A DNA stretch of 21,041 bases from the IMG/VR virus record IMGVR_UViG_3300020439_000102, positions 1 through 21,041 of that record; one strand, 5' to 3'. Below are positions 3,235 to 20,961 of this stretch, one piece after another (positions within the stretch are counted from its first letter, which is position 1; each line of letters begins with the position of its first letter). The DNA is from a virus. The position numbers and the translations under genes are program-made. The notes under the pieces are model-generated. The model saw only the letters and a program-made list of their open reading frames with translations, was not told where the DNA came from and did no database searches.

Positions 3235-4244
3235 ATTTTCTTTCCGATATCGTAAAGGAGATCGATAATGAATACGCTGGTCTGGTTTCAGACGGAGTTG
3301 CTGCGGGTGACACCGCTGCTTACATTGATACTGGTAGTTATATTTTCAACGCACTGGTATCTGGATCAATCTATGGTGGCATCCCGTCCAATAAGATTAC
3401 AGCTTTGGCGGGCGAGTCTTCAACTGGCAAGACTTTCTATTGCCTTGGTATTGTCAAGCATTTTCTTGACATGGATCCTGACGCTGGTGTGATCTACTTT
3501 GAGTCTGAGTCTGCTATCAGCAGAGACATGATTGAATCTAGAAACATTGACTCCAAGCGTATGGTCATTGTCCCTGTCACCACTGTACAGGAGTTTAGGC
3601 AGCAGGCAATCAAGATCATTGACAAGTATCTACAGATGCCTGAAGAGTCTCGCCAACCCATGATGTTTGTGTTAGACTCACTGGGTATGCTCTCAACTTC
3701 TAAGGAGATTGAGGATACCGAAGCGGGTAAAGAGACCCGTGACATGACCAGGGCACAGGTAGTTAAGTCTATCTTCCGTGTGCTTACCCTCAAACTGGGT
3801 AAAGCAAACGTGCCTATGATCGTGACTAATCACACTTACGATGTCGTTGGAGCTTATGTCCCTACAAAGGAAATGGGTGGAGGCAGTGGACTCAAGTATG
3901 CTGCTTCTACAATCATCTATCTCTCAAAGAAGAAAGAGAAGGATGGCAAGGAAGTCATTGGAAACATTATCAAGGCTAAGACTGCTAAGTCTCGTCTAAG
4001 CAAGGAGAATTCTGAAGTTGAAACACGTCTCTATTATGATGACCGTGGACTGGACCGCTATTACGGACTACTGGAATTGGGTGAGAAGTACGGAGTCTTC
4101 CAGCGGGTCGGGAATCGCATCAAAGTTGGTGAATCTTCTGTTTATCCTAAGTCTATTCTCGCTGATCCCGAGAAATACTTCACCCCCGAAGTGATGGTGC
4201 GACTGGACAAGGCAGCAGAGCAGGAGTTTTCCTATGGATCATAA
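3225..4244 (+). CDS. uvsX: UvsX, RecA-like recombinase
   Basis: This strand-exchange ATPase forms filaments on single-stranded DNA and drives recombination-dependent replication and repair. The Walker A motif is GESSTGKT (63-70) and Walker B is FVLD ending at D151. The NHTYD stretch and the [13 protein letters not shown] stretch match the RecA/UvsX core. Two GTG starts are possible. GTG 3225 sits 5 nt after GGAGG. GTG 3231 gives [11 protein letters not shown], the usual N-terminus in cyanophages as I recall it, and overlaps the polymerase stop as GTGA. It overlaps gp43 upstream and the oxygenase-like gene downstream. Length of 337-339 residues is slightly below T4 UvsX. Confidence 0.95.
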
Positions 4245-4794
4245 GGAATGGATCAGGGTCTTCCCTAAGGCACTGGACCCTAACGTCTGCAAGAATGCTA
4301 TCCTCAAAGCAGATGCCTCTGACAAGATGATGAGGTGGGACGAAGGTGTCCCACAGTACAACATCATCAACGTTTCATTTCTTGCCAATGAAGGTGACCA
4401 CGAGTGGAATTCTATCCAACAGCAGGTCGTCCCTATCATCCAGTGGTCTGCTCATGAATATATGAAGCTACTGGACTGTGAGAAATTCTGGGCATCCAAG
4501 AATAACCTTGAGCAGATCAAACTGAATAAATACAATGTCGATACTGGAGATAACTTCGGTCTCCATATTGATGTTGGTGATGCAGATTCTGCTAAGAGAT
4601 TCCTGGCATACAAGATCTTCCTCAATGATGTTGAGGAAGGTGGAGAGATGGAGTTTCCACAAATTGGTTACAAGATTAAACCACAGCAAGGTGATGTGGT
4701 AATATATCCACCAGGATGGACGTATCCTTATTCAGATAACGCTCCCATCAGTAATGACAAGTATGAATTGACCACCTATCTACATTATCAATGA
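4234..4794 (+). CDS. 2OG-Fe(II) oxygenase-like protein with altered metal site
   Basis: This 186-residue protein has the prolyl-4-hydroxylase-type double-stranded beta-helix layout. It shows the metal pair HxD (H111, D113), [17 protein letters not shown], the [13 protein letters not shown] turn, and a late basic residue K176 where this group binds 2-oxoglutarate. The distal metal histidine, expected in a context like YPH, appears as YPY here, with Y166 in its place. Such proteins hydroxylate protein or nucleic-acid side chains, and the substrate in cyanophages is not known. It lies between uvsX and gp41, overlapping uvsX by 11 nt and gp41 by 4 nt (ATGA), so it is expressed with replication genes. 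It may be inactive or use an unusual metal site. Confidence 0.75.
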
Positions 4795-7067: not shown

Positions 7068-8078
7068 ATGGCGGTCCTGTCTGGCAAGTCCACTTCTGGA
7101 GAGTCAGCATTCGACAAATACATCGGCAACAACAGCATGTGGAAAGACCTCGTGCTCAAAGTCGAAGTTGATATGAATGCTACTTTCTTTAAGTCAAATA
7201 AAAAAGATACTCATGGTGTGCTAAAATCAGGCACGGAATTGAAACTTGCTGGCAACAAACAGGATACCATTGGTAAACTGAAAGTAGCACATGTAAAGGT
7301 TGGATCTAAGACTGGGTATATTGCACTCAACAGGATCAGAAAACCTACTAAAACAAATGTCATGGCAGCAGAAGAAGCTGCTATCCGTGACCTAGATAAA
7401 CTCATTAAGGACTTAGTTAAACAACTAGGTCCTATTAAAATATGTACACCCAGTGGTGACTTCAAGAATTGCGTGGGTGTGAGAAATATAACTGAAAAAG
7501 TTTTAGGTAGAGAAGCAAAGGCTGACTTTGCAATCTATGATGATAAGGAAGTGGATCAAATTTTTATCTCTCACAAGAAGGCAGGTGGACCTGCTGCTTA
7601 CCAGCAGTATGGTGGTGTCTCCCCTAAGTCTGGTAGTGCCAACAACCCTACGTTGATCTATGATGATGCTGAGACTAAAAACTTTCTAAGAAAAGTTGCA
7701 GGTTATATTGTTGGTGACAAACTACAGAATCCTGTCTACTCATATGTGAAGAGCACTACACTTATCAATAGATCCGTGTATGGTCCTTCTTATGGCGGCA
7801 AGTATGGTATAGATAATGTCAACATGATTGCACAGGGTAATCCTAAACTCACACCTAAGCGTGGTGAAGAAGCATGTTTCAATCTGACATTCTCTGATCA
7901 TGTATCATGGAATGGTGACTCGGACTACTTCTCTAGGGGAGGATACCGTGCTGCCTTTGCTGCTACCTACAGAGCAGGCAGAGGATTTGATATTGATGGG
8001 CAACGATACAACGGTGCCCGTGTGGCAATTTACCCAGTGGCACTGGTGAGCAACCGTAGTGGTGCTGAGGAGGTATAA
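7068..8078 (+). CDS. Conserved phage protein with possible PD-(D/E)xK-like nuclease core
   Basis: This 336-residue protein has an N-terminal part with an SH3-like pattern (LKSGTELKL, KLKVAHVKVGSKTGYIAL). The middle region has KADFAIYD followed by IFISHKKAGGPAAYQQYGG. The spacing D153 to S168-H-K170 resembles the metal-binding beta-hairpin of PD-(D/E)xK nucleases, with Ser in place of the second acid as seen in some families. The C-terminal third is rich in Gly, Tyr and Arg and looks like a beta-rich domain. It opens a block with the ligase-like and HxGH genes. As I recall, related proteins sit beside those genes in other marine T4-like phages. No start-proximal Shine-Dalgarno is strong. A structural role cannot be excluded. 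Confidence 0.75.
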   Translation: MAVLSGKSTSGESAFDKYIGNNSMWKDLVLKVEVDMNATFFKSNKKDTHGVLKSGTELKLAGNKQDTIGKLKVAHVKVGSKTGYIALNRIRKPTKTNVMAAEEAAIRDLDKLIKDLVKQLGPIKICTPSGDFKNCVGVRNITEKVLGREAKADFAIYDDKEVDQIFISHKKAGGPAAYQQYGGVSPKSGSANNPTLIYDDAETKNFLRKVAGYIVGDKLQNPVYSYVKSTTLINRSVYGPSYGGKYGIDNVNMIAQGNPKLTPKRGEEACFNLTFSDHVSWNGDSDYFSRGGYRAAFAATYRAGRGFDIDGQRYNGARVAIYPVALVSNRSGAEEV

Positions 8079-8085
8079 TAAAGAC

Positions 8086-9282
8086 ATGGCAAAAAACACA
8101 CACCTAGAGCACCTCGAAGACGACATCTTCAATCAAGGATACGCTGGTGCTACTAACGCTATCAATTTCCTTGAGTCATTGCGTGACATGCTCACGTCAG
8201 GTAAGGGTGGTAACAATACCAAGGTTACTGTCAAGTGGGATGGTGCTCCTGCAATCATTTGCGGCACAGATCCTGAGACAGGATTGTTTTTCGTGGGTAA
8301 CAAGTCAGTCTTTAACAAGACTAACCCTAAGATCTGCTACTCCCATGCTGACATTGACTTTCATTATGATGGTGCCCTCAATGGCATTCTCAAAGCGTGT
8401 CTCGATCAACTCAGCAAACTCCCTATTCAAGGAGTGATCCAAGGTGACTTGCTTTACACTAAGAAACCTACAGTCATTGCAATGCGTGGTCGTCCTTGCT
8501 ACCACTTCAAACCTAACACTATCACCTATGTGATTCCAAAGCATTCTGAGTTGGGACAGAAGGTTGCTGCAAGCAAACTCGGTATTGTATTCCACACCTC
8601 ATACAGAGGATCCACGATCGGTGAGATGAGTGCTGGTTTTGGTGTTGATGTGTCTGGTATGCAGGGTGTAAAAGACGTTGCAGTCTTCTCTTCCACCTTC
8701 CAGAATGTCAATGGCATGGCAAACCTTAACCCAGGTGAGATCACTAGACTTAATAGTACTATTCAGAAGGCACAACGTAGTCTTTCTAAGGGTAAGAAAT
8801 TCTTAGATCAGATCCAGAGAGCACCAGGACCACAGTCCTTTGCTCCTCCTGCTCTCTTCAAGATCTACTTCAACCAAGTTATCCGTGGTGGTAATGTCCC
8901 CTCTGCAGAAGGTATTGCTTCTGGTTATATTGACTTCGTGACCAAGAAATATGATGACGAGATTAAGAAGAAGAAGACTGATAAGTCACAGCAAGAATGG
9001 AAGCGCCGTAAGGTTGACGCTCTCGCTTACCTAAATAATAATAAGTCTTTAATGATCCACACATTTACTGGATTTAAGGACCTTATCGCTGCAAAAGAGC
9101 AAGTGATAAATAAACTCAAGAAGATTGAAGGCGTGGGTACTTTCTTGGAAGACGAGAAAGGATACCGTGTCACAAGTCCAGAAGGATTTGTTGCAATCAA
9201 AGATGGCACTGCTATCAAACTTGTTGATCGTCTAGAGTTTTCACGAGCAAACTTCACCGTCGCTAAAGATTGGGGCAAATGA
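8086..9282 (+). CDS. Putative covalent nucleotidyltransferase (RNA/DNA ligase-like)
   Basis: This 398-residue protein carries, in order, the motifs of the ligase/capping superfamily. Motif I is KWDG with K50 as the possible AMP-accepting lysine. A motif III-like IQGDLLY has D121. Motif IV is EGFVAI with E366, and motif V is AIKLV with K378. The last two resemble the EGYVAV and KIK segments of T4 RNA ligase 1 as I remember them. The second motif V lysine is Val (V380) and the motif III acid is Asp, so activity may differ. A helical, lysine-rich insert (about 285-345) lengthens the core. ATG 8086 is preferred over GTG 8059 because homologous starts resemble MAKNTHLEHLED and GAGGAGG lies 12-18 nt upstream. 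It overlaps the next gene as ATGA. Possibly a family catalogued only as unknown function. Confidence 0.7.
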   Translation: MAKNTHLEHLEDDIFNQGYAGATNAINFLESLRDMLTSGKGGNNTKVTVKWDGAPAIICGTDPETGLFFVGNKSVFNKTNPKICYSHADIDFHYDGALNGILKACLDQLSKLPIQGVIQGDLLYTKKPTVIAMRGRPCYHFKPNTITYVIPKHSELGQKVAASKLGIVFHTSYRGSTIGEMSAGFGVDVSGMQGVKDVAVFSSTFQNVNGMANLNPGEITRLNSTIQKAQRSLSKGKKFLDQIQRAPGPQSFAPPALFKIYFNQVIRGGNVPSAEGIASGYIDFVTKKYDDEIKKKKTDKSQQEWKRRKVDALAYLNNNKSLMIHTFTGFKDLIAAKEQVINKLKKIEGVGTFLEDEKGYRVTSPEGFVAIKDGTAIKLVDRLEFSRANFTVAKDWGK

Positions 9283-10385
9283 GATTTATTCAATTTATCA
9301 GGGAGGCAGCAGAGGCAGCAAAGAAGCCTAAGAAACCTTCCACATCCAGTAAGGGACGGTCGTCTGCAGCAGACAAAAAATTAGAGGACAAGCATGTCGC
9401 AATTACTTTTGGGAGGTTTAACCCTCCTCACGCTGGTCATGGTAAACTCCTGGATGCAGTCAAAGCGCACGGCGGCGACTCAGGCAATTACCGTATCTAT
9501 CCATCACGGTCCCAAGATCACAAGAAGAATCCGCTGACTGCACAGCAGAAGGTGGACCACATGCGTAAGATGTTTAAGGGGCACAAGGATGCTATCCAAA
9601 ACAACGAAGCGCATAGAAATATCTTTGACATCCTTCGCGACTTGCATGATGAAGGTCATGAGCATGTCACCATGGTCGTCGGTGATGATCGTGTGAAGGA
9701 GTTTGAGACCCTTGCAAACAAGTACAATGGTCTTCACTATGACTTCAAATCTATTAACATTAAGTCTGCAGGTGCTCGTGCTACTGACAGTGATGATCCT
9801 ATTGAGAATCTGTCCGCCTCAGCAATGCGGAAACATGCCCAAGGAGGAGATCACGACTCATTCCATATTGGGACTGGTGGATACAAGGACTCTAAGAAAC
9901 TGATGGCAGATGTTATCCAAGGGATGACACCTCCACCTAAGGCGAAGAAGGGTAAGAAGGGTGAGTCTGTCCATGAATCTGTCTGGACATACGCTCCTAA
10001 ACTAGACTTCGATGCCTTCCGTGACTACTACATGCTCAACCAGATCTACAAGGTTGGTGCAATCGTAGAGCATGATGACAGTGGTATGATTGGTAAGATC
10101 GTCCACCGTGGTCCTAACTACATCATCATGGAAGATGGTCTGGGTGGTGAGCACCGTGCATGGTTGCAGCATATCACAGAGATGACTGATGCTGAGACAC
10201 AGGCAGTTGCTGCTGACACTACAAAGGATCAAGGTAACTATAGTGCCGATGATGGCAGTGGTAACACCTGGAAAGCAGGGACTGACCGCTATCGTGAAGC
10301 ACTGCAGAATATGACCCCTGGTCAGAAGCCAGTTAAATTCTCAGAGTTTAACGCTTCCATTAGAAAAACTGCTGAAACTAAATAG
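9279..10385 (+). CDS. HxGH nucleotidyltransferase fused to a beta-rich tail
   Basis: This 368-residue protein begins MRFIQFIREAA, a short N-terminal leader, then a Lys/Ala/Ser-rich linker. The cytidylyl/adenylyltransferase domain starts at about residue 40 with GRFNPPHAGH (45-54), holding the nucleotide-binding HxGH (H51, H54). It ends with the phosphate-binding SASAMR (179-184), equivalent to the ISxSxxR motif. NMN adenylyltransferases and related enzymes share this layout, but the substrate here is not evident. After a PPPKAKKGKKG linker, residues 255-305 (YKVGAIVEHDDSGMIGKIV onward) look like a KOW/SH3-like barrel. The start ATG 9279 overlaps the ligase-like stop as ATGA. The stop TAG is embedded in CTAAATA. 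Confidence 0.8.
   Translation: MRFIQFIREAAEAAKKPKKPSTSSKGRSSAADKKLEDKHVAITFGRFNPPHAGHGKLLDAVKAHGGDSGNYRIYPSRSQDHKKNPLTAQQKVDHMRKMFKGHKDAIQNNEAHRNIFDILRDLHDEGHEHVTMVVGDDRVKEFETLANKYNGLHYDFKSINIKSAGARATDSDDPIENLSASAMRKHAQGGDHDSFHIGTGGYKDSKKLMADVIQGMTPPPKAKKGKKGESVHESVWTYAPKLDFDAFRDYYMLNQIYKVGAIVEHDDSGMIGKIVHRGPNYIIMEDGLGGEHRAWLQHITEMTDAETQAVAADTTKDQGNYSADDGSGNTWKAGTDRYREALQNMTPGQKPVKFSEFNASIRKTAETK
10378..10384 (+). promoter_or_regulatory. Late promoter motif CTAAATA
   Basis: CTAAATA overlaps the stop of the HxGH gene and lies 31 nt before ATG 10416. It is followed by a short inverted repeat (CGAAA at 10392-10396 with TTTCG at 10401-10405). CTAAATA-type variants of the T4 late -10 have been described for cyanophages. 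The stop-embedded placement repeats that at 7038-7044, which supports function, but the motif is short. Confidence 0.4.
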
Positions 10386-10415: not shown

Positions 10416-11294
10416 ATGACGTTAGAAATGCTGGTGTCTGCGGCACTGATGGATTACAATCCTACCGAGCAGGCATATATCCTCAAGGCAATCGAAGAAG
10501 ATAAACTTCCTGATACCAAGAGACTCCACGATGGAGTCATGAAGGTCATGGAAGCATTCGATGCTTACGAGCCTACAGTAGAAGGCTACGCAGGATTCAA
10601 AATTGATCGTAACGCTGTCGCAAAGAAGAAGGCAGAGTACAAAGATGACCGAAATGTTGGTCGGGTTGTCAACGCTGGTGGTGATTCTATGCTCATCACT
10701 GGTAAGAAGGCAGACGGTCGTTACATTGTCGTCGGTAAGAAAGGCGAGAAGTCAGCAAGAGATGCTGCTGACCTAGGTGTCACCAAGAAAGAAGAAGTGG
10801 TTGGCATCGACATCGACGATCTCCATCAAGAAATGCTTGAAGGTCTCAAGCAGGCTCGTGCTAATGTTGGTAAGAGCAAGTGCTGGGACGGATACAAAGC
10901 AACAGGCACCAAGATGAAAGGTGGTAAGGAAGTGCCTGATTGCAAAAAAGAAGAGAGTATGAATGAAGTCTACAAGGGTAGGCATGGTCAGACTGACAAG
11001 CAGTATGCTGACTCCCGCTCCCAAGGTGGCAAGATGGTTTCTGGTGACTCCAAGATGAGTGGTGCTGAATACACTCATGGTCGTAGAGTCAAGGCAGCAA
11101 ACCCTGGTATGCAACCTGATGTAGGTGGCAAGACTAAACCCAAGTCCCAAGGTAAGATGGATAAGGGTACTCGTGCCGATCTTGATTATCGCAAAGCAAA
11201 TCTCAAAAAGAGCAACGAAGAGTTTATAAATAAACTGTCCGCTTCGGGACTGTTTACTGAAGCAGAGTTGCAAAAGATGGGGGAGATGGAATGA
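10416..11294 (+). CDS. Late or structural protein with CWxGY motif, function unknown
   Basis: This 292-residue protein begins with a helical stretch (MTLEMLVSAALMDYNP), followed by a Val/Gly-rich beta segment (VGRVVNAGGDSMLITG). It then has a cysteine-bounded motif starting CWDGYKATGTK at C156 and ending at C176 (PDC). The remainder is rich in Lys, Gly and Ser with little predicted structure, and ends NEEFINKLSASGLFTEAELQ. From memory, the CWxGY element recurs in marine T4-like phage proteins of unknown role, and the paired cysteines could bind a metal or form a disulfide. It follows a late promoter motif and overlaps the next gene as ATGA, so I favour a late virion-related role. That is inference. 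Confidence 0.7.
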   Translation: MTLEMLVSAALMDYNPTEQAYILKAIEEDKLPDTKRLHDGVMKVMEAFDAYEPTVEGYAGFKIDRNAVAKKKAEYKDDRNVGRVVNAGGDSMLITGKKADGRYIVVGKKGEKSARDAADLGVTKKEEVVGIDIDDLHQEMLEGLKQARANVGKSKCWDGYKATGTKMKGGKEVPDCKKEESMNEVYKGRHGQTDKQYADSRSQGGKMVSGDSKMSGAEYTHGRRVKAANPGMQPDVGGKTKPKSQGKMDKGTRADLDYRKANLKKSNEEFINKLSASGLFTEAELQKMGEME

Positions 11295-13952: not shown

Positions 13953-14896
13953 ACAAGTATAAGCACGTCAAATCAGGTCTCTATAACTTCCGCTGCCCCT
14001 ACTGTGGTGATTCACAGAAGCATAAGAATAAGGCACGGGGGTATTTTTTTCTGAAGAAGACTGAATACATCTACAAGTGTCACAACTGTGGCATAGGTAG
14101 ATCGCTGTCTAATTTTCTAAAGGACAATGCTGTGGATCTGCATGACCAGTATGTCATGGAGAAATATAAGCAGGGGATGACAGGTAAAGGGAGGCATACA
14201 CCCTCACCAGAATACAAAGGTGCAACACCAAAGTTTGCCAAGAAGGTAACAGATTGCACACCTATTTCAGAGCTAAATACAGGACACCCCGCAAAAGAAT
14301 ATCTTCTCAAAAGGAAGATACCTGAAGATCAACTAGGTAGATTCTTCTACGTTGATAAGTTTAAGAGGTGGGTCAACACACAACGTCCCACGTTTGAAAA
14401 TCTACAGAATGACAGACCTAGAATTATTATCCCTCTCATTGGTGAGGACGGTGTGTGGTTTGGAATCCAGGGTCGCTCTCTGGCAGCAACTTCTACGCTA
14501 CGATACATCACAGTAATGTTTGAGGATAGACTCAAACTATTCGGACAAGATCATGTAAACCCTGAGGAAACCGTTTATGTCACAGAAGGACCATTCGACA
14601 GTACTTTCATTAGACAAGCTGTTGCTATGTGTGGTAGCGATGTTGACCACCGCTCTATTCCTTATAAGAATAGGGTCTGGGTATTCGACAACGAGCCCCG
14701 CAATAAACAAATCGTGTCACGGATTGACGCTGCCATCAGAAGCCAGGAGCAGGTGGTTATCTGGCCAAAAGGATTAAAGGAAAAGGATATCAATGACATG
14801 GTGTTGGCAGGACTTGACCCTTCTGCTATAATAAAAGACAACACCTTTTCGGGATTAACAGCAAAGGTAAAACTAACAGATTGGAAAAAGGTATGA
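13904..14896 (+). CDS. 61: DNA primase (gp61)
   Basis: This DnaG-type primase makes RNA primers with the gp41 helicase. The N-terminal zinc ribbon is CPYC (C31, C34) with CHNC (C59, C62). The Toprim region shows VYVTEGPFDSTF with the catalytic Glu, then WVFDNEP with an acidic metal site, and EKDINDMVLAG. The 330-residue length matches T4 gp61. ATG 13904 is preferred because the family begins close to KYIRLLSTRL. This start lies 49 nt inside the preceding membrane-protein gene. The stop overlaps nrdA as ATGA at 14893-14896. Confidence 0.93.
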   Translation: MDYVDDKYIRLLSTRLDKYKHVKSGLYNFRCPYCGDSQKHKNKARGYFFLKKTEYIYKCHNCGIGRSLSNFLKDNAVDLHDQYVMEKYKQGMTGKGRHTPSPEYKGATPKFAKKVTDCTPISELNTGHPAKEYLLKRKIPEDQLGRFFYVDKFKRWVNTQRPTFENLQNDRPRIIIPLIGEDGVWFGIQGRSLAATSTLRYITVMFEDRLKLFGQDHVNPEETVYVTEGPFDSTFIRQAVAMCGSDVDHRSIPYKNRVWVFDNEPRNKQIVSRIDAAIRSQEQVVIWPKGLKEKDINDMVLAGLDPSAIIKDNTFSGLTAKVKLTDWKKV

Positions 14897-17193
14897 GCGA
14901 CATTACAGTTGTCAAGCGCAACGGTATGGTGGAGGATCTCCACCTTAGTAAAATTCATGAGATGGTAGAGCACGCTTGCAGAGGTCTTGCAGGTGTGTCT
15001 GAGTCGGCAGTAGAAATGAATGCCAATCTCCAAGTCTTCGATGGTATCAAGACCAGTGACATTCAAGAAATTCTTATTCGCTCTGCCAATGACCTGATTA
15101 CATTGGAAGCACCAAACTATCAGTTTGTAGCAGCACGTCTGCTGTTGTTTGGTCTTCGTAAGCAGGTGTATAATGGTCACCCAGACCTACGTCCACACAT
15201 TCAAGAGCATGTGTGGGACTGTGTTGAGCGTGGTGTGTATGACAAGACCATTCTCAAAGCATACTCTGATGATGAGTGGGATCAGATCGAATCATTTATT
15301 GATCATGACCGTGACTATTTGTTTACATATGCTGGTTTGCGGCAGGTAGTAGATAAATACCTCGTGCAGGATCGCTCGTCTGGTGAGGTGTATGAGACAC
15401 CACAACAGATGTACATCATGATCGCAGCGACGCTCTTCCAAAAATATCCATCAGAGACTCGACTCGATTATGTCAGACGATACTACGACGCAATCTCGAA
15501 GCACCGAATCAACATTCCCACACCTATCATGGCAGGGGTGCGAACTCCGCTTCGACAATTTGCGAGCTGTGTTCTTGTTGATGCTGATGACACCCTCGAT
15601 AGCATCTTTAGTAGCGACATGGCTATTGGTTACTACGTTGCACAGCGTGCTGGAATCGGCATTAACGCGGGGAGGATCCGTGGCATCAACAGTAAGATCA
15701 GAGGGGGTGAAGTACAGCATACAGGTGTTGTACCATTTCTCAAAAAGTTTGAGTCAACTGTCAGATGCTGTACGCAAAACGGCGTTAGAGGTGGAAGTGC
15801 AACAGTCCACTTCCCAATCTGGCACAAAGAAATAGAAGATATCATTGTCCTTAAGAATAACAAGGGCACTGAAGATAACAGGGTAAGGAAACTTGACTAT
15901 TCTGTCCAAATTAGCAAACTATTTTATGAAAGATTCATCGGAAATGGAGAGGTTTCGCTTTTCAGTCCTCATGATGTCCCTGGGTTGTATGACGCTTTCG
16001 GCACTGATGAGTTTGACGATCTGTATTGTAGTTACGAATCGGATAAGTCAATCCCTAGAAGCACCGTCCCTGCCCAGCAACTCTTCCTTGACCTACTGAA
16101 GGAGAGAGCAGAGACTGGTCGTATTTACATCATGAATATCGACCACTGTAATACTCACTCGTCCTTCAAGGACAAGGTGAATATGTCTAACCTGTGTCAG
16201 GAGATCACCCTGCCTACGGATCCTATCACCCATATTGATGATGACGCAGGAGAGATTGCGCTGTGTATTCTGTCTGCCGTTAACGTGGGCAAGATTAAAA
16301 ATCTTGAAGAGATGGAGAATCTTTGTGACCTTTCGGTTAGAGGTCTGGAAGAGTTGATTGATTACCAAGAGTATCCTGTCGCTGCAGCACGCCGTAGCAC
16401 CCTTGCAAGGCGCTCCTTGGGCATTGGATTCATCGGTCTGGCACATTACCTTGCCAAGCATGGAGAGCACTATGATGACAAAGGTGCATTGAAACTGGTC
16501 CATGAGTTGACTGAAGCATTCCAATACTATCTGCTGAAGGCATCTAACAAACTGGCACAAGAGCGTGGAGCATGTGAAGCATTCCATCGCACCAAGTACT
16601 CGGACGGAATTCTTCCGATCGATACATATAAGAAGGACGTAGACGATCTAGTAGCACCAGAATACAACTATGATTGGGATTCTTTACGGACTGATATCGA
16701 CGAATTCGGTCTCAGACACAGCACATTGTCCGCACAAATGCCTTCGGAGAGCAGCTCCGTTGTGTCAAACGCAACCAATGGAATCGAGCCGCCTCGCGAC
16801 TACCTGTCCATTAAGAAATCAAAGAAGGGACCACTAAAACAGATCGTCCCACAATATACAACACTGAAGAATAACTATACCCTTCTCTGGGACATGCCAT
16901 CCAATCAAGGATACGTTGGTATCGTTGCTGTGATGCAGAAATTCTTTGACCAAGCCATCTCTGGTAACTGGTCCTACAACCCAGAGAAATTTGACAACAA
17001 TGAGGTCCCCGTGTCAGTCATGGCACAAGATCTCCTTCTCACCTACAAGTATGGTTGGAAGACTTCTTATTATCAAAACACTTACGACTCTAAGAGGGAT
17101 CCAGATGTAGAAGAGACGGCAAAGAAACTAGACGATCTCCTAGCAGAGATCGATGCAAGTGACGAGTCTGAGTGCGACGCTTGCAATGTCTAA
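14893..17193 (+). CDS. nrdA: Ribonucleotide reductase class Ia, large subunit (NrdA)
   Basis: This enzyme reduces ribonucleotides to deoxyribonucleotides for phage DNA synthesis. The 766-residue protein keeps an N-terminal ATP-cone (VVKRNGMVEDLHLSK onward) that senses ATP/dATP. Active-site residues are visible: C226 (ASCV) and C458 (LCIL) as the disulfide pair, N433-x-C435-x-E437 (NLCQE) for radical chemistry, and Y726-Y727 (SYYQNTY) for radical transfer. The C-terminal CDAC supplies the swinging thiols. The start is ATG 14893, overlapping the gp61 stop. TTG 14881 is less likely. It overlaps the next small gene by 8 nt. Confidence 0.96.
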   Translation: MSDITVVKRNGMVEDLHLSKIHEMVEHACRGLAGVSESAVEMNANLQVFDGIKTSDIQEILIRSANDLITLEAPNYQFVAARLLLFGLRKQVYNGHPDLRPHIQEHVWDCVERGVYDKTILKAYSDDEWDQIESFIDHDRDYLFTYAGLRQVVDKYLVQDRSSGEVYETPQQMYIMIAATLFQKYPSETRLDYVRRYYDAISKHRINIPTPIMAGVRTPLRQFASCVLVDADDTLDSIFSSDMAIGYYVAQRAGIGINAGRIRGINSKIRGGEVQHTGVVPFLKKFESTVRCCTQNGVRGGSATVHFPIWHKEIEDIIVLKNNKGTEDNRVRKLDYSVQISKLFYERFIGNGEVSLFSPHDVPGLYDAFGTDEFDDLYCSYESDKSIPRSTVPAQQLFLDLLKERAETGRIYIMNIDHCNTHSSFKDKVNMSNLCQEITLPTDPITHIDDDAGEIALCILSAVNVGKIKNLEEMENLCDLSVRGLEELIDYQEYPVAAARRSTLARRSLGIGFIGLAHYLAKHGEHYDDKGALKLVHELTEAFQYYLLKASNKLAQERGACEAFHRTKYSDGILPIDTYKKDVDDLVAPEYNYDWDSLRTDIDEFGLRHSTLSAQMPSESSSVVSNATNGIEPPRDYLSIKKSKKGPLKQIVPQYTTLKNNYTLLWDMPSNQGYVGIVAVMQKFFDQAISGNWSYNPEKFDNNEVPVSVMAQDLLLTYKYGWKTSYYQNTYDSKRDPDVEETAKKLDDLLAEIDASDESECDACNV

Positions 17194-17353
17194 AGAAGTT
17201 ACTATCACACTCAGCAAGGACTTACAGGAAGACTTTGAGTCCTACATTGACTGCTGCTACTCCTTGGATGTCGCACCAAGGATCAACGCTTTTCTAAATT
17301 ATATTTACAACTACGGTACATGCAAGAATCCAAGGGAGCCACAATGGGACTGA
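17186..17353 (+). CDS. 55-residue protein between nrdA and nrdB
   Basis: This frame begins at ATG 17186 inside the last codons of nrdA and ends at TGA 17351-17353, 10 nt past the nrdB start at 17344. The protein starts MSKEVTITLSKDLQEDFESY and contains a CC pair (DCCYSLDVAP) and a further Cys. The beginning has the pattern of a short strand and helix. A role linked to the reductase is suggested only by position. An alternative start at ATG 17153 would overlap nrdA further. Nothing in the sequence identifies the family. Confidence 0.65.
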   Translation: MSKEVTITLSKDLQEDFESYIDCCYSLDVAPRINAFLNYIYNYGTCKNPREPQWD

Positions 17354-18480
17354 CAGTTTTCAATGATCGCAAGGTAGATACCAAGAAGCAACCAATGTTT
17401 TTTGGACAACCACTGGGGATGCAAAGATACGATGAGTATAAGTATCCTGACTTTGATAAACTAACTCAGACACAACTCGGTTACTTCTGGAGACCTGAAG
17501 AGGTATCATTGCAGAAGGACCGTGCAGATTACAAAACACTTAATGAACAACAGAAACACATCTACACCAGTAACCTCAAGTATCAGATCCTTTTGGACTC
17601 TGTGCAAGGGCGTGGTCCTGGTATGGCATTCTCTCCTTACTGCTCTCTTCCAGAATTGGAAGGATGCATGGGAGTCTGGGAATTCATGGAGCAGATTCAC
17701 TCCCGCTCCTATACCCATATCATCAAAAACGTATACGCAGATCCCTCAGAGGTCTTCGACGCGGTACTAGACAACGATAAGATCCTGGACCGTGCCAAGT
17801 CTGTGTGTAAGGCATACAATGAATTCATTGAAGCAGCAACTGAGTGGGCAAACGGCAACCTGTGGAAGGGAGACTGGAAAGACTCCCCCACATCTGCCTG
17901 GACAATGCGTGACGTAAAACGTAAACTCTACCTGGCGATTGCTAATGTCAATATCCTGGAAGGAATTCGCTTCTATGTTTCTTTTGCTTGCAGCTTTGCT
18001 TTTGGCGAGCTCAAACTCATGGAGGGGTCCGCAAAGATCATTTCCCTCATCGCCCGTGATGAGTCACAGCATCTGGCATTGACTCAGAAGATCCTTTATA
18101 AGTGGCAGAAGGGTGACGATCCTGAGATGCAAGAGATTGCAGAAGAAGAAAAAGAAACTGTGCGTCAGATGTTTCTCGACGCAGTAGCCCAAGAAAAAGA
18201 ATGGGCAAAGTATTTGTTTGAGAATGGTAGCATGATCGGTCTTAACGAGCGTCTGCTTTCTCAATACGTTGAATGGGTTGCAAACCGTCGCATGAAAGCG
18301 ATCGGACTGGCACCTGCCTTCGACATCCCTGCTAAGAATAATCCACTGCCCTGGACAGAGCACTGGCTAAATAGCAAGGGTCAACAAAATGCCCCTCAGG
18401 AAACTGAGATTGAGTCCTATGTCGTCGGAGGAATCAAGCAAGATGTCAGTGCTGAAACTTTTAGCGGGTTTAAGCTCTAA
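17344..18480 (+). CDS. nrdB: Ribonucleotide reductase class Ia, small subunit (NrdB)
   Basis: This subunit holds the diiron centre and tyrosyl radical that activate NrdA. All ligands read as intact: D85 (LLDSVQGR), E116 and H119 (EQIH), E222 (FAFGEL), E240 and H243 (DESQH). The radical tyrosine is Y123 in SRSYTH. The 378-residue length fits the class Ia enzyme. ATG 17344 is chosen because GGGAG lies 6 nt before it and the product begins MGLTVFNDRK. ATG 17320 is an alternative that adds eight residues. The C-terminal tail (DVSAETFSGFKL) is the part that docks on NrdA. The last 38 nt overlap the next small gene. Confidence 0.96.
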   Translation: MGLTVFNDRKVDTKKQPMFFGQPLGMQRYDEYKYPDFDKLTQTQLGYFWRPEEVSLQKDRADYKTLNEQQKHIYTSNLKYQILLDSVQGRGPGMAFSPYCSLPELEGCMGVWEFMEQIHSRSYTHIIKNVYADPSEVFDAVLDNDKILDRAKSVCKAYNEFIEAATEWANGNLWKGDWKDSPTSAWTMRDVKRKLYLAIANVNILEGIRFYVSFACSFAFGELKLMEGSAKIISLIARDESQHLALTQKILYKWQKGDDPEMQEIAEEEKETVRQMFLDAVAQEKEWAKYLFENGSMIGLNERLLSQYVEWVANRRMKAIGLAPAFDIPAKNNPLPWTEHWLNSKGQQNAPQETEIESYVVGGIKQDVSAETFSGFKL

Positions 18481-20221: not shown

Positions 20222-20374
20222 ATGGACAATCAATTTCTTGAGGAGATTGATGAGATCAACTATACGATTGAATTCCTAGTGGACCAACTCCATGAAGCAC
20301 TAGCGGCAGGAGACTATCTGGAAGGCGAAGCACTTGCAGAGAAGATCCGTCAACAATCTGAAGCAATTAAATGA
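20222..20374 (+). CDS. 50-residue helical protein
   Basis: The frame ATG 20222 to TGA 20372-20374 encodes MDNQFLEEIDEINYTIEFLV, continuing DQLHEALAAGDYLEGEALAE to the end. It is acidic and mostly helical, like a coiled-coil hairpin. A strong GGAGAGGAG is 8-16 nt before the start, following the sigma70-like promoter. It overlaps the oxygenase gene as ATGA at 20371-20374. Function is unknown. Confidence 0.65.
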   Translation: MDNQFLEEIDEINYTIEFLVDQLHEALAAGDYLEGEALAEKIRQQSEAIK

Positions 20375-20961
20375 TTCATTCTTTATTTTCTATCCCCATT
20401 GCACATTATGAAATTGAGAATTGGAGGACGAATAAAGAGAGAATCATGAGTGCTCTGCCTGTGTTTCGAGAAGAGCATTTTGAATCAAACGGCGAGCAGT
20501 ATACTGACTTCTTCCACCAGGATGAGGAGTTGCTGCCTGCTTATGCTGACACGGTGATTGCTATCATCGAACCATATCTTGCTGAGTTTACTGAGCGTAG
20601 ACGCATCGAGTTTACTGACATGTGGTGTCAAACATCATACAAAGGTCAGAAGCACGGTCTCCACAATCATGGACACAGTGGATGGTCAGCAGTAATCTAT
20701 GTGGACTTCGATCCACAGCACCATCAAGCGACACAATTCGTGTCACCCTTTAATAACCCGTGGAGTGGTAGGTTACAGACCTTCATTCCACCAGTAAAGG
20801 AGGGAGACATGGTTATTTTTCCAGCAACGGTAGCACATGAGGCACTGCCCAATGAGTCTGATAAACCACGCACCATCGTTTCGTTTAACATACGAGGCAA
20901 AGTTGACAAAGTTAAGAAGACTATGTGGGAAGGCGATCCAATAGTACGTGTCCCTGTTTAA
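20371..20961 (+). CDS. 2OG-Fe(II) oxygenase family protein
   Basis: This 196-residue protein starts MIHSLFSIPIAHYEIEN and carries the beta-helix layout of a 2OG oxygenase. It has HGLHNHGHSGWSAVIYV (H98, H100), a GDMVIFP turn, the distal HEALP with H156, and KPRTIVSFNI with R167 as the likely 2-oxoglutarate binder. Unlike the oxygenase-like gene at 4234, the distal His and Arg are intact. In place of the usual HxD, the first pair is HxH, which some related phage proteins also show, so the metal site needs care. Substrate is unknown. It is the last protein gene before the tRNA. Confidence 0.8.
   Translation: MIHSLFSIPIAHYEIENWRTNKERIMSALPVFREEHFESNGEQYTDFFHQDEELLPAYADTVIAIIEPYLAEFTERRRIEFTDMWCQTSYKGQKHGLHNHGHSGWSAVIYVDFDPQHHQATQFVSPFNNPWSGRLQTFIPPVKEGDMVIFPATVAHEALPNESDKPRTIVSFNIRGKVDKVKKTMWEGDPIVRVPV

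Follow-up and report, generated by a model that had tools for sequence, protein, structure and literature searches.

Is the DUF6267 gene of this viral DNA an overlooked ligase? The stretch analysed, called the window below, comprises 21,041 nucleotides (positions 1 to 21,041 of IMG/VR virus record IMGVR_UViG_3300020439_000102). An earlier note, made from the letters alone, had seen four motifs of the RNA/DNA ligase and capping superfamily in a protein not recognised as a ligase. The databases agree with the latter: according to both Pfam and PHROGs the function is unknown, NCBIfam has no model for the protein, and PADLOC matches neither it nor the nucleotidyltransferase (NTase) encoded directly downstream. 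The features are listed in Table 1.

Table 1. Features of the DUF6267 locus, in window coordinates.
Feature	Position	Strand	Evidence or remark
Type II restriction-endonuclease-like protein, upstream neighbour	7068-8078	+	PADLOC REase_II 1.3e-14; phrog_13937
DUF6267 ORF, predicted covalent (lysyl-AMP) nucleotidyltransferase / polynucleotide-ligase core	8086-9282	+	ATG 8086, stop TGA, 398 aa
H6-x-x-H9, within the family N-terminal NxHLEHxED signature	8101-8112	+	H6, H9 invariant 109/109
Motif I KWDGAP, K50 the predicted AMP-accepting lysine	8233-8250	+	K50, D52, G53, P55 invariant
K73 of FVGxKSVF, probable motif Ia	8302-8304	+	Invariant; assignment inferred from motif order
Motif III QGD, D121 replacing the usual Glu	8440-8448	+	Q119, D121 invariant
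NTITY (Y148), possible motif IIIa	8515-8529	+	Y148 invariant; assignment inferred
HTxY (H170, Y173), after NTITY	8593-8604	+	Both residues invariant
Lysine-rich helical insert, between possible motif IIIa and motif IV	8698-9135	+	Helices in AlphaFold2 model
Motif IV EGFVA (E366)	9181-9195	+	E366, G367 invariant
Motif V KLVDR, K378 kept, V380 for second lysine	9217-9231	+	K378 invariant; V380 V/I 109/109
HIGH-superfamily nucleotidyltransferase, NMNAT-like, "cytidyltransferase" in relatives	9279-10385	+	PF01467 3.9e-9, TIGR00482 1e-5

The protein is a full-length member of the Pfam family PF19782, DUF6267 (E-value 1e-129, 433 bits against a cut-off of 27, model positions 1-376 of 376), and also a member of phrog_455. 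A GTG at 8059 would give a longer frame, which is merely the mechanical earliest start codon. Using tblastn, we found DUF6267 in 467 phage records, mainly from Synechococcus and Prochlorococcus myoviruses (Kyanoviridae). T4-like cyanophages rank among the ocean's most abundant viruses. Other carriers are Methylophilales, Pelagibacter, Stenotrophomonas, Vibrio and Xanthomonas phages and a gut-type contig, so the earlier attribution of the family to marine T4-like phages describes most of its members, but not those from Xanthomonas, Stenotrophomonas, Vibrio and Methylophilales phages or from the gut-type contig. PF19782, phrog_455, T4-GC 71 and the cyanomyovirus signature gene S-PM2_141 are one gene, and a 2010 review of T4-like cyanophages counts S-PM2_141 among the conserved genes without a known function (PMC2984593). 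The names "DUF6267" and "PF19782" occur in none of the open-access literature searched. The family was thus already known without a function; what is new here is a fold and a likely chemistry for a widespread cyanophage gene. Pseudomonas jumbo phages have a protein of 446-449 aa that may be a very distant relative, with a Foldseek E-value of 8e-5 for the PA5oct protein (BFVD A0A4Y5JUK8) and a profile E-value of 0.012 for the PAC2 protein (PP408249, near 136649).

The motifs reported earlier are all found at the residues given and in order: KWDG with K50, GDLLY with D121, EGFVAI with E366 and AIKLV with K378 and V380. To evaluate their conservation we used 109 homologues, no two of them sharing 80% identity or more. 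Fifteen residues are 100% invariant in this set (H6, H9, K50, D52, G53, P55, K73, Q119, D121, Y148, H170, Y173, E366, G367 and K378), while V369 is kept in 108 and R382 in 107. The same invariant set, including K50 and E366, whose conservation had been singled out as a check, is found in the most distant members, i.e. those of XaC1, DLP_6 and C48C1 (Xanthomonas and Stenotrophomonas phages included) and of the gut-type contig, at about 22-24% identity with the XaC1 protein. When the protein's own sequence was shuffled 20,000 times, the motif series came up in order 3 times; among 332 unrelated proteins from the loci, each 250 aa or longer, it never did. A chance occurrence of the motifs is rejected by the residue invariance together with the shuffle test.

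Compared with the superfamily consensus, the KxDG of motif I (K50, D52, G53) and the EGhV of motif IV (E366, G367) are present in all 109 homologues. The acid of motif III is also invariant, but it is Asp121 and not Glu in 109/109, and in the KxK of motif V the first lysine (K378) is found in all members while the second is replaced by Val (105) or Ile (4) and is never a lysine. Both departures had been read from the window protein alone and turn out to hold for the whole family. The spacing between K50 and K73 is 23 residues, against 20 in T4 Rnl1, and the positions corresponding to this probable motif Ia are K119 in T4 Rnl1 and R55 in Rnl2. From the motif IV Glu to the motif V Lys there are 12 residues, against 13 in T4 Rnl1.

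An AlphaFold2 model of the window protein, built with 99 natural homologues, obtained a pLDDT of 90.1 and a pTM of 0.85. It contains a nucleotidyltransferase core, and the lysine-rich insert is predicted to be helical, as had been proposed, with helices at residues 216-235, 237-245, 254-267, 274-295, 299-318 and 320-345. When the full model was compared with the PDB by Foldseek, this insert dominated the matches. Therefore, we also modelled a natural homologue with a short insert, L206 (305 aa, pLDDT 86.7), without altering any sequence; short inserts occur in some cyanophage members, which are then about 290-305 aa long. The same core is present in this second model, and its top eight Foldseek rows are RNA and tRNA ligases, an RNA-repair complex and one DNA ligase, with E-values of 0.05-0.17. 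As the Foldseek E-values are 0.05 or worse for both models, the support for the fold comes from the structural alignment of predicted models and from the motifs.

After VIA realignment of the Foldseek candidates, the top 12 rows for the window model are all RNA ligases, with Z-scores of 6.5-8.1 and spanning residues 3-392 (Naegleria RNA ligase 8.1, TbREL1 7.2, T4 Rnl2 6.5). For L206 all 50 matches listed are RNA or DNA ligases, headed by the Naegleria RNA ligase (8.9 over 177 residues) and including T4 Rnl1 (7.5), T4 Rnl2 (7.2), TbREL1 (7.1) and the fungal Trl1 (6.9). Each of these Z-scores is modest, as according to the tool's own note 7-8 is often reached by models without a clear match and 8-9 is just above that. 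The assignment depends instead on a list made up entirely of one superfamily, with matches across the full domain, for a protein whose motifs point to that superfamily independently. On these models DUF6267 very probably has the fold of, and belongs to, the covalent nucleotidyltransferase (DNA/RNA ligase) superfamily. The earlier note had posed an overlooked ligase/adenylyltransferase family and a deviant one with altered chemistry as alternatives. The ligase matches of the two models and the invariant motifs bear out the former, and the motifs are at the same time deviant, so that the two are not alternatives.

Sequence comparison alone failed to detect this relationship. A profile comparison had been suggested as a check, and hhalign gave no significant match, neither to Rnl1 (E-value 0.013, probability 3%) nor to Rnl2 (E-value 0.06). 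Searching the PDB by phmmer and by profile returned no ligase, only chance matches that were mostly helical and driven by the lysine-rich insert. In Pfam, the protein matches none of PF09511, PF09414, PF01068 and PF01653. Further, the chain ends about 20 residues after K378 of motif V, and there is therefore no OB domain and no C-terminal domain of the Rnl1 or Rnl2 type. DUF6267 appears to be a previously unrecognised, divergent and separate branch of the superfamily, outside every named ligase family.

The best structural match of both models is the Naegleria gruberi RNA ligase (5cot, 6vt9), over its nucleotidyltransferase domain (residues 143-339). The identity is about 10%, the roughly 140 additional N-terminal residues of the Naegleria enzyme are unmatched, and compared with it DUF6267 has the helical insert and the deviant motifs III and V. 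T4 Rnl1 (gp63; PF09511), which the last two motifs were said to resemble, is a good structural match, but neither the best one nor significant by profile. It shares KxDG, a lysine about 20 residues further on (K119, here K73), EG(Y/F)VA and K-x-K/V in order, while DUF6267 lacks a PF09511 match, the C-terminal helical domain and the second motif V lysine, and the Glu of motif III is an Asp. T4 Rnl2 (gp24.1; PF09414) shares the nucleotidyltransferase fold; there is no profile match, and an equivalent of its K227 is absent. T4 DNA ligase gp30 (PF01068) belongs to the same superfamily and its place is empty in cyanomyoviruses; ATP-dependent DNA ligases, gp30 included, have an OB domain, and DUF6267 has neither this domain nor a PF01068 match. 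A parallel in domain make-up is RLIG1 (C12orf29), which consists of the NTase core only and lacks the RNA-binding domain that T4 Rnl1 has, yet is a true RNA ligase; its top structural hit is the same 5cot, and one motif V lysine is described (PMC11494293). RLIG1 has Glu in its motif III and is likened to DUF6267 by structure and domain make-up, not by sequence. Also for T4 Rnl2, the core alone (residues 1-249) can join strands (PMC3149579).

From the fold, the invariant motifs, the linkage to a partner gene and the finding that the Kyanoviridae tested have no other recognisable ligase, we infer that DUF6267 is a catalyst acting on nucleic acids. Our preferred reading, with a probability of about 0.6, is an AMP-lysine polynucleotide ligase, or an enzyme that adenylylates nucleic-acid ends, in either case acting together with the NTase. 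The lysyl-AMP chemistry as such is likely. K50 would attack the alpha-phosphate of an adenylate donor, most likely ATP and possibly NAD+, to give a lysyl-AMP enzyme, with D52, D121, E366 and K378 holding metal and phosphate. The AMP would then be passed to a nucleic-acid 5'-phosphate, which would be sealed to a 3'-OH; sealing of DNA nicks and of RNA ends are about equally likely. Since the protein consists only of the nucleotidyltransferase core and a basic helical insert, the insert and the partner NTase probably supply substrate binding. In some phages the NTase is fused at the C-terminus of DUF6267, the position taken in other ligases by an OB or helical domain.

One point against the ligase reading is motif V, where the second lysine, equivalent to K227 of T4 Rnl2, is missing family-wide. 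In Rnl2 the first lysine, K225, contacts the AMP phosphate in a remodelled site, and K227 is required for adenylyl transfer in both directions (PMC3149579). With the first lysine kept and the second missing, an altered use of the donor or an altered balance of the steps is plausible, and an altered chemistry, as suggested in the earlier note, is plausible. If the ligase reading is true, the superfamily gains a natural KxV variant that would be useful for learning what each motif V lysine does.

The ATG of the NTase overlaps the stop of DUF6267 by 4 nt. Its nearest NCBIfam models are nicotinate/nicotinamide-nucleotide adenylyltransferases, with E-values of 1e-5 to 2e-4, below the cut-offs of these models. 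An NTase lies at most 1.5 kb downstream of DUF6267 in 136 out of 187 loci and does not in the other 51. For five complete phages without adjacency (P-SSM2, Bellamy, ACG-2014f, S-N03, XaC1) we looked for it in the rest of the genome, where it is present in all five. The two domains form a single polypeptide in S-PM2 (LN828717), in the 936-aa proteins of the gut-type contig and in viral-library entries, and phrog_455 covers both. For S-PM2, LN828717 has one fused ORF of 591 aa whereas NC_006820 lists S-PM2p141 and S-PM2p142, with a "cytidyltransferase" that includes the C-terminus of DUF6267. A comparison of the two records suggests that the split is probably a frameshift in the older one, and the fused ORF rules out a separate pair.

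The N-terminus of the NTase, MRFIQFIREA (9279-9315), resembles the capsid-targeting sequence (CTS) of T4 internal proteins, MKTYQEFIAEA in IPII and IPIII, and comes with a site like that of the prohead protease; the role of the T4 CTS is described in PMC3012670. A CTS-like pattern is found in 27 of 33 distinct N-termini of NTase homologues and in 2 of 128 background proteins, the background being scored with a slightly stricter pattern and the first Met assigned mechanically. DUF6267 itself has no CTS-like N-terminus. Virion proteomes of cyanophages include cytidyltransferases (PMC10665884), and judging by its N-terminus the NTase may be packaged and injected. The locus defines a linked pair of a ligase-fold protein and an NTase, of which the partner is known from virions.

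Some names given to the NTase refer to ribonucleotide reductase. A C-terminal module (residues 241-304, about 9999-10190) matches phrog_4808, whose label is "ribonucleotide reductase alpha subunit", and in several records the NTase appears as "NrdB". The window has other ORFs, at 14881-17193 and 17320-18480, that look like genuine nrdA and nrdB, so the name seems to be a misannotation that has been propagated. A recurrent motif, CWDGYKxxGxKxKGGKxVPDC, is found in the gene following the NTase (10416-11294) and inside the C-terminal part of the NTase of phage C48C1 (4676-6019 of locus L285).

We then compared the ligase content of the phages. Recognisable DNA ligases and Rnl2 (PF01068, PF01653, PF09414) are absent from all 12 Kyanoviridae genomes tested, and Rnl1 (PF09511) from all seven searched for it, while the same profiles find recognisable ligases in T4 (PF01068 and PF09414) and in jumbo phages. 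Nine out of ten large metagenomic relatives, many of them fragments, have neither PF01068 nor PF09511. DUF6267 is the only ligase-type gene found in the tested cyanophage genomes and may therefore answer how such phages join nucleic-acid ends. However, DLP_6, XaC1 and one 195-kb contig carry it alongside a PF01068 DNA ligase, so that a plain replacement role does not account for it.

A tentative possibility is an RNA-repair ligase in the niche of T4 Rnl1, mending RNA (tRNA or other) after cleavage by the host's defence nucleases. The closest structures are RNA ligases, motifs IV and V resemble those of Rnl1, and RLIG1 is a precedent for an RNA ligase with the NTase core only. Four large phages with the NTase and without a detected DUF6267 (121Q, K64-1, Cr30, SNUABM_12) all carry Rnl1. 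The exclusion is however not strict, as XaC1 and the 195-kb contig have both Rnl1 and DUF6267. Repair of the T4 type is also weakened by the end-healing kinase/phosphatase PseT, which is present in T4, 121Q, K64-1, SNUABM_12 and XaC1 but was found in none of the 12 Kyanoviridae tested, and the genomic neighbours of DUF6267 are mainly genes of DNA metabolism.

Another reading takes DUF6267 as the missing DNA ligase of T4-like cyanophages, which would seal Okazaki-fragment and recombination nicks at a T4-type replisome. In the window the gene is located in a block of replication genes, between ORFs like the gp41 helicase and the gp61 primase and near gp43 and uvsX (names by comparison with annotated relatives), and in many isolates it follows gp41/mazG. 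It is also the cyanomyovirus signature gene S-PM2_141, and in the Kyanoviridae tested we find no recognisable DNA ligase. We nevertheless consider this doubtful, as there is no OB domain, the best structural matches are RNA ligases, PF01068 co-occurs in the three cases above, and some phages carry DUF6267 away from the gp41/mazG block. According to the 2010 review, homologues of g30 (DNA ligase) were not found in cyanomyoviruses; distant, unidentified homologues were considered possible, a true absence likelier, and the host ligase could suffice (PMC2984593). DUF6267 is a concrete candidate for the distant ligase that this review left open.

It is unlikely that DUF6267 has kept the ligase fold but given up joining nucleic acids, and instead adenylylates another target, be it a protein, a small molecule or, as a cap, the end of a nucleic acid, with the NTase and the upstream nuclease belonging to the same module. 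The Asp of motif III, the missing second lysine, the family-specific invariant HxxH and HTxY motifs, the constant NTase partner with its CTS-like N-terminus and the cytidyltransferases of cyanophage virions (PMC10665884) are all consistent with such a role. Against it, K50, D52, E366 and K378 are all kept, and the CTS-like sequence belongs to the NTase and not to DUF6267.

Quite improbable is a self-sustaining ligase module associated with the virion. Here the AMP donor would be a dinucleotide such as NAD+ and not ATP, which would explain the loss of the second motif V lysine; NMN would be left over, and the NMNAT-like partner, packaged by a T4-type targeting peptide, would remake NAD+ from NMN and ATP locally. 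Together with the hypervariable restriction-type nuclease this would form a cut-and-seal system early in infection. Finally, a catalytically dead scaffold or structural protein that keeps only the fold could account for the deviant motifs III and V, but is highly improbable, since phages of great diversity all keep the same fifteen residues, most of which are polar or of a catalytic type.

The slot just upstream of DUF6267 is hypervariable, with many mutually unrelated families in about 160 loci. Besides the window protein, one other family from this slot matches the REase_II model (1.6e-10), and the other nine families tested do not. A D..(S/E)xK signature is found in 14 of 33 from the upstream slot and in 11 of 128 background proteins (p 1.7e-5, which is optimistic because the expression was written after the sequences had been seen). 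By eye, the 936-aa fusion also ends in a similar stretch, D..EVK. T4-like cyanophages are not known to have denA or denB, and the upstream-slot protein could thus be an unrecognised nuclease for host DNA. CTS-like N-termini are also seen in a few upstream-slot lineages (L084, L183, L188). The wider neighbourhood contains two ORFs like 2OG-Fe(II) oxygenases, at 4234-4794 and 20371-20961. The first is located between the uvsX-like and gp41-like ORFs, and in Melnitz-3 an annotated 2OG-Fe oxygenase follows recA.
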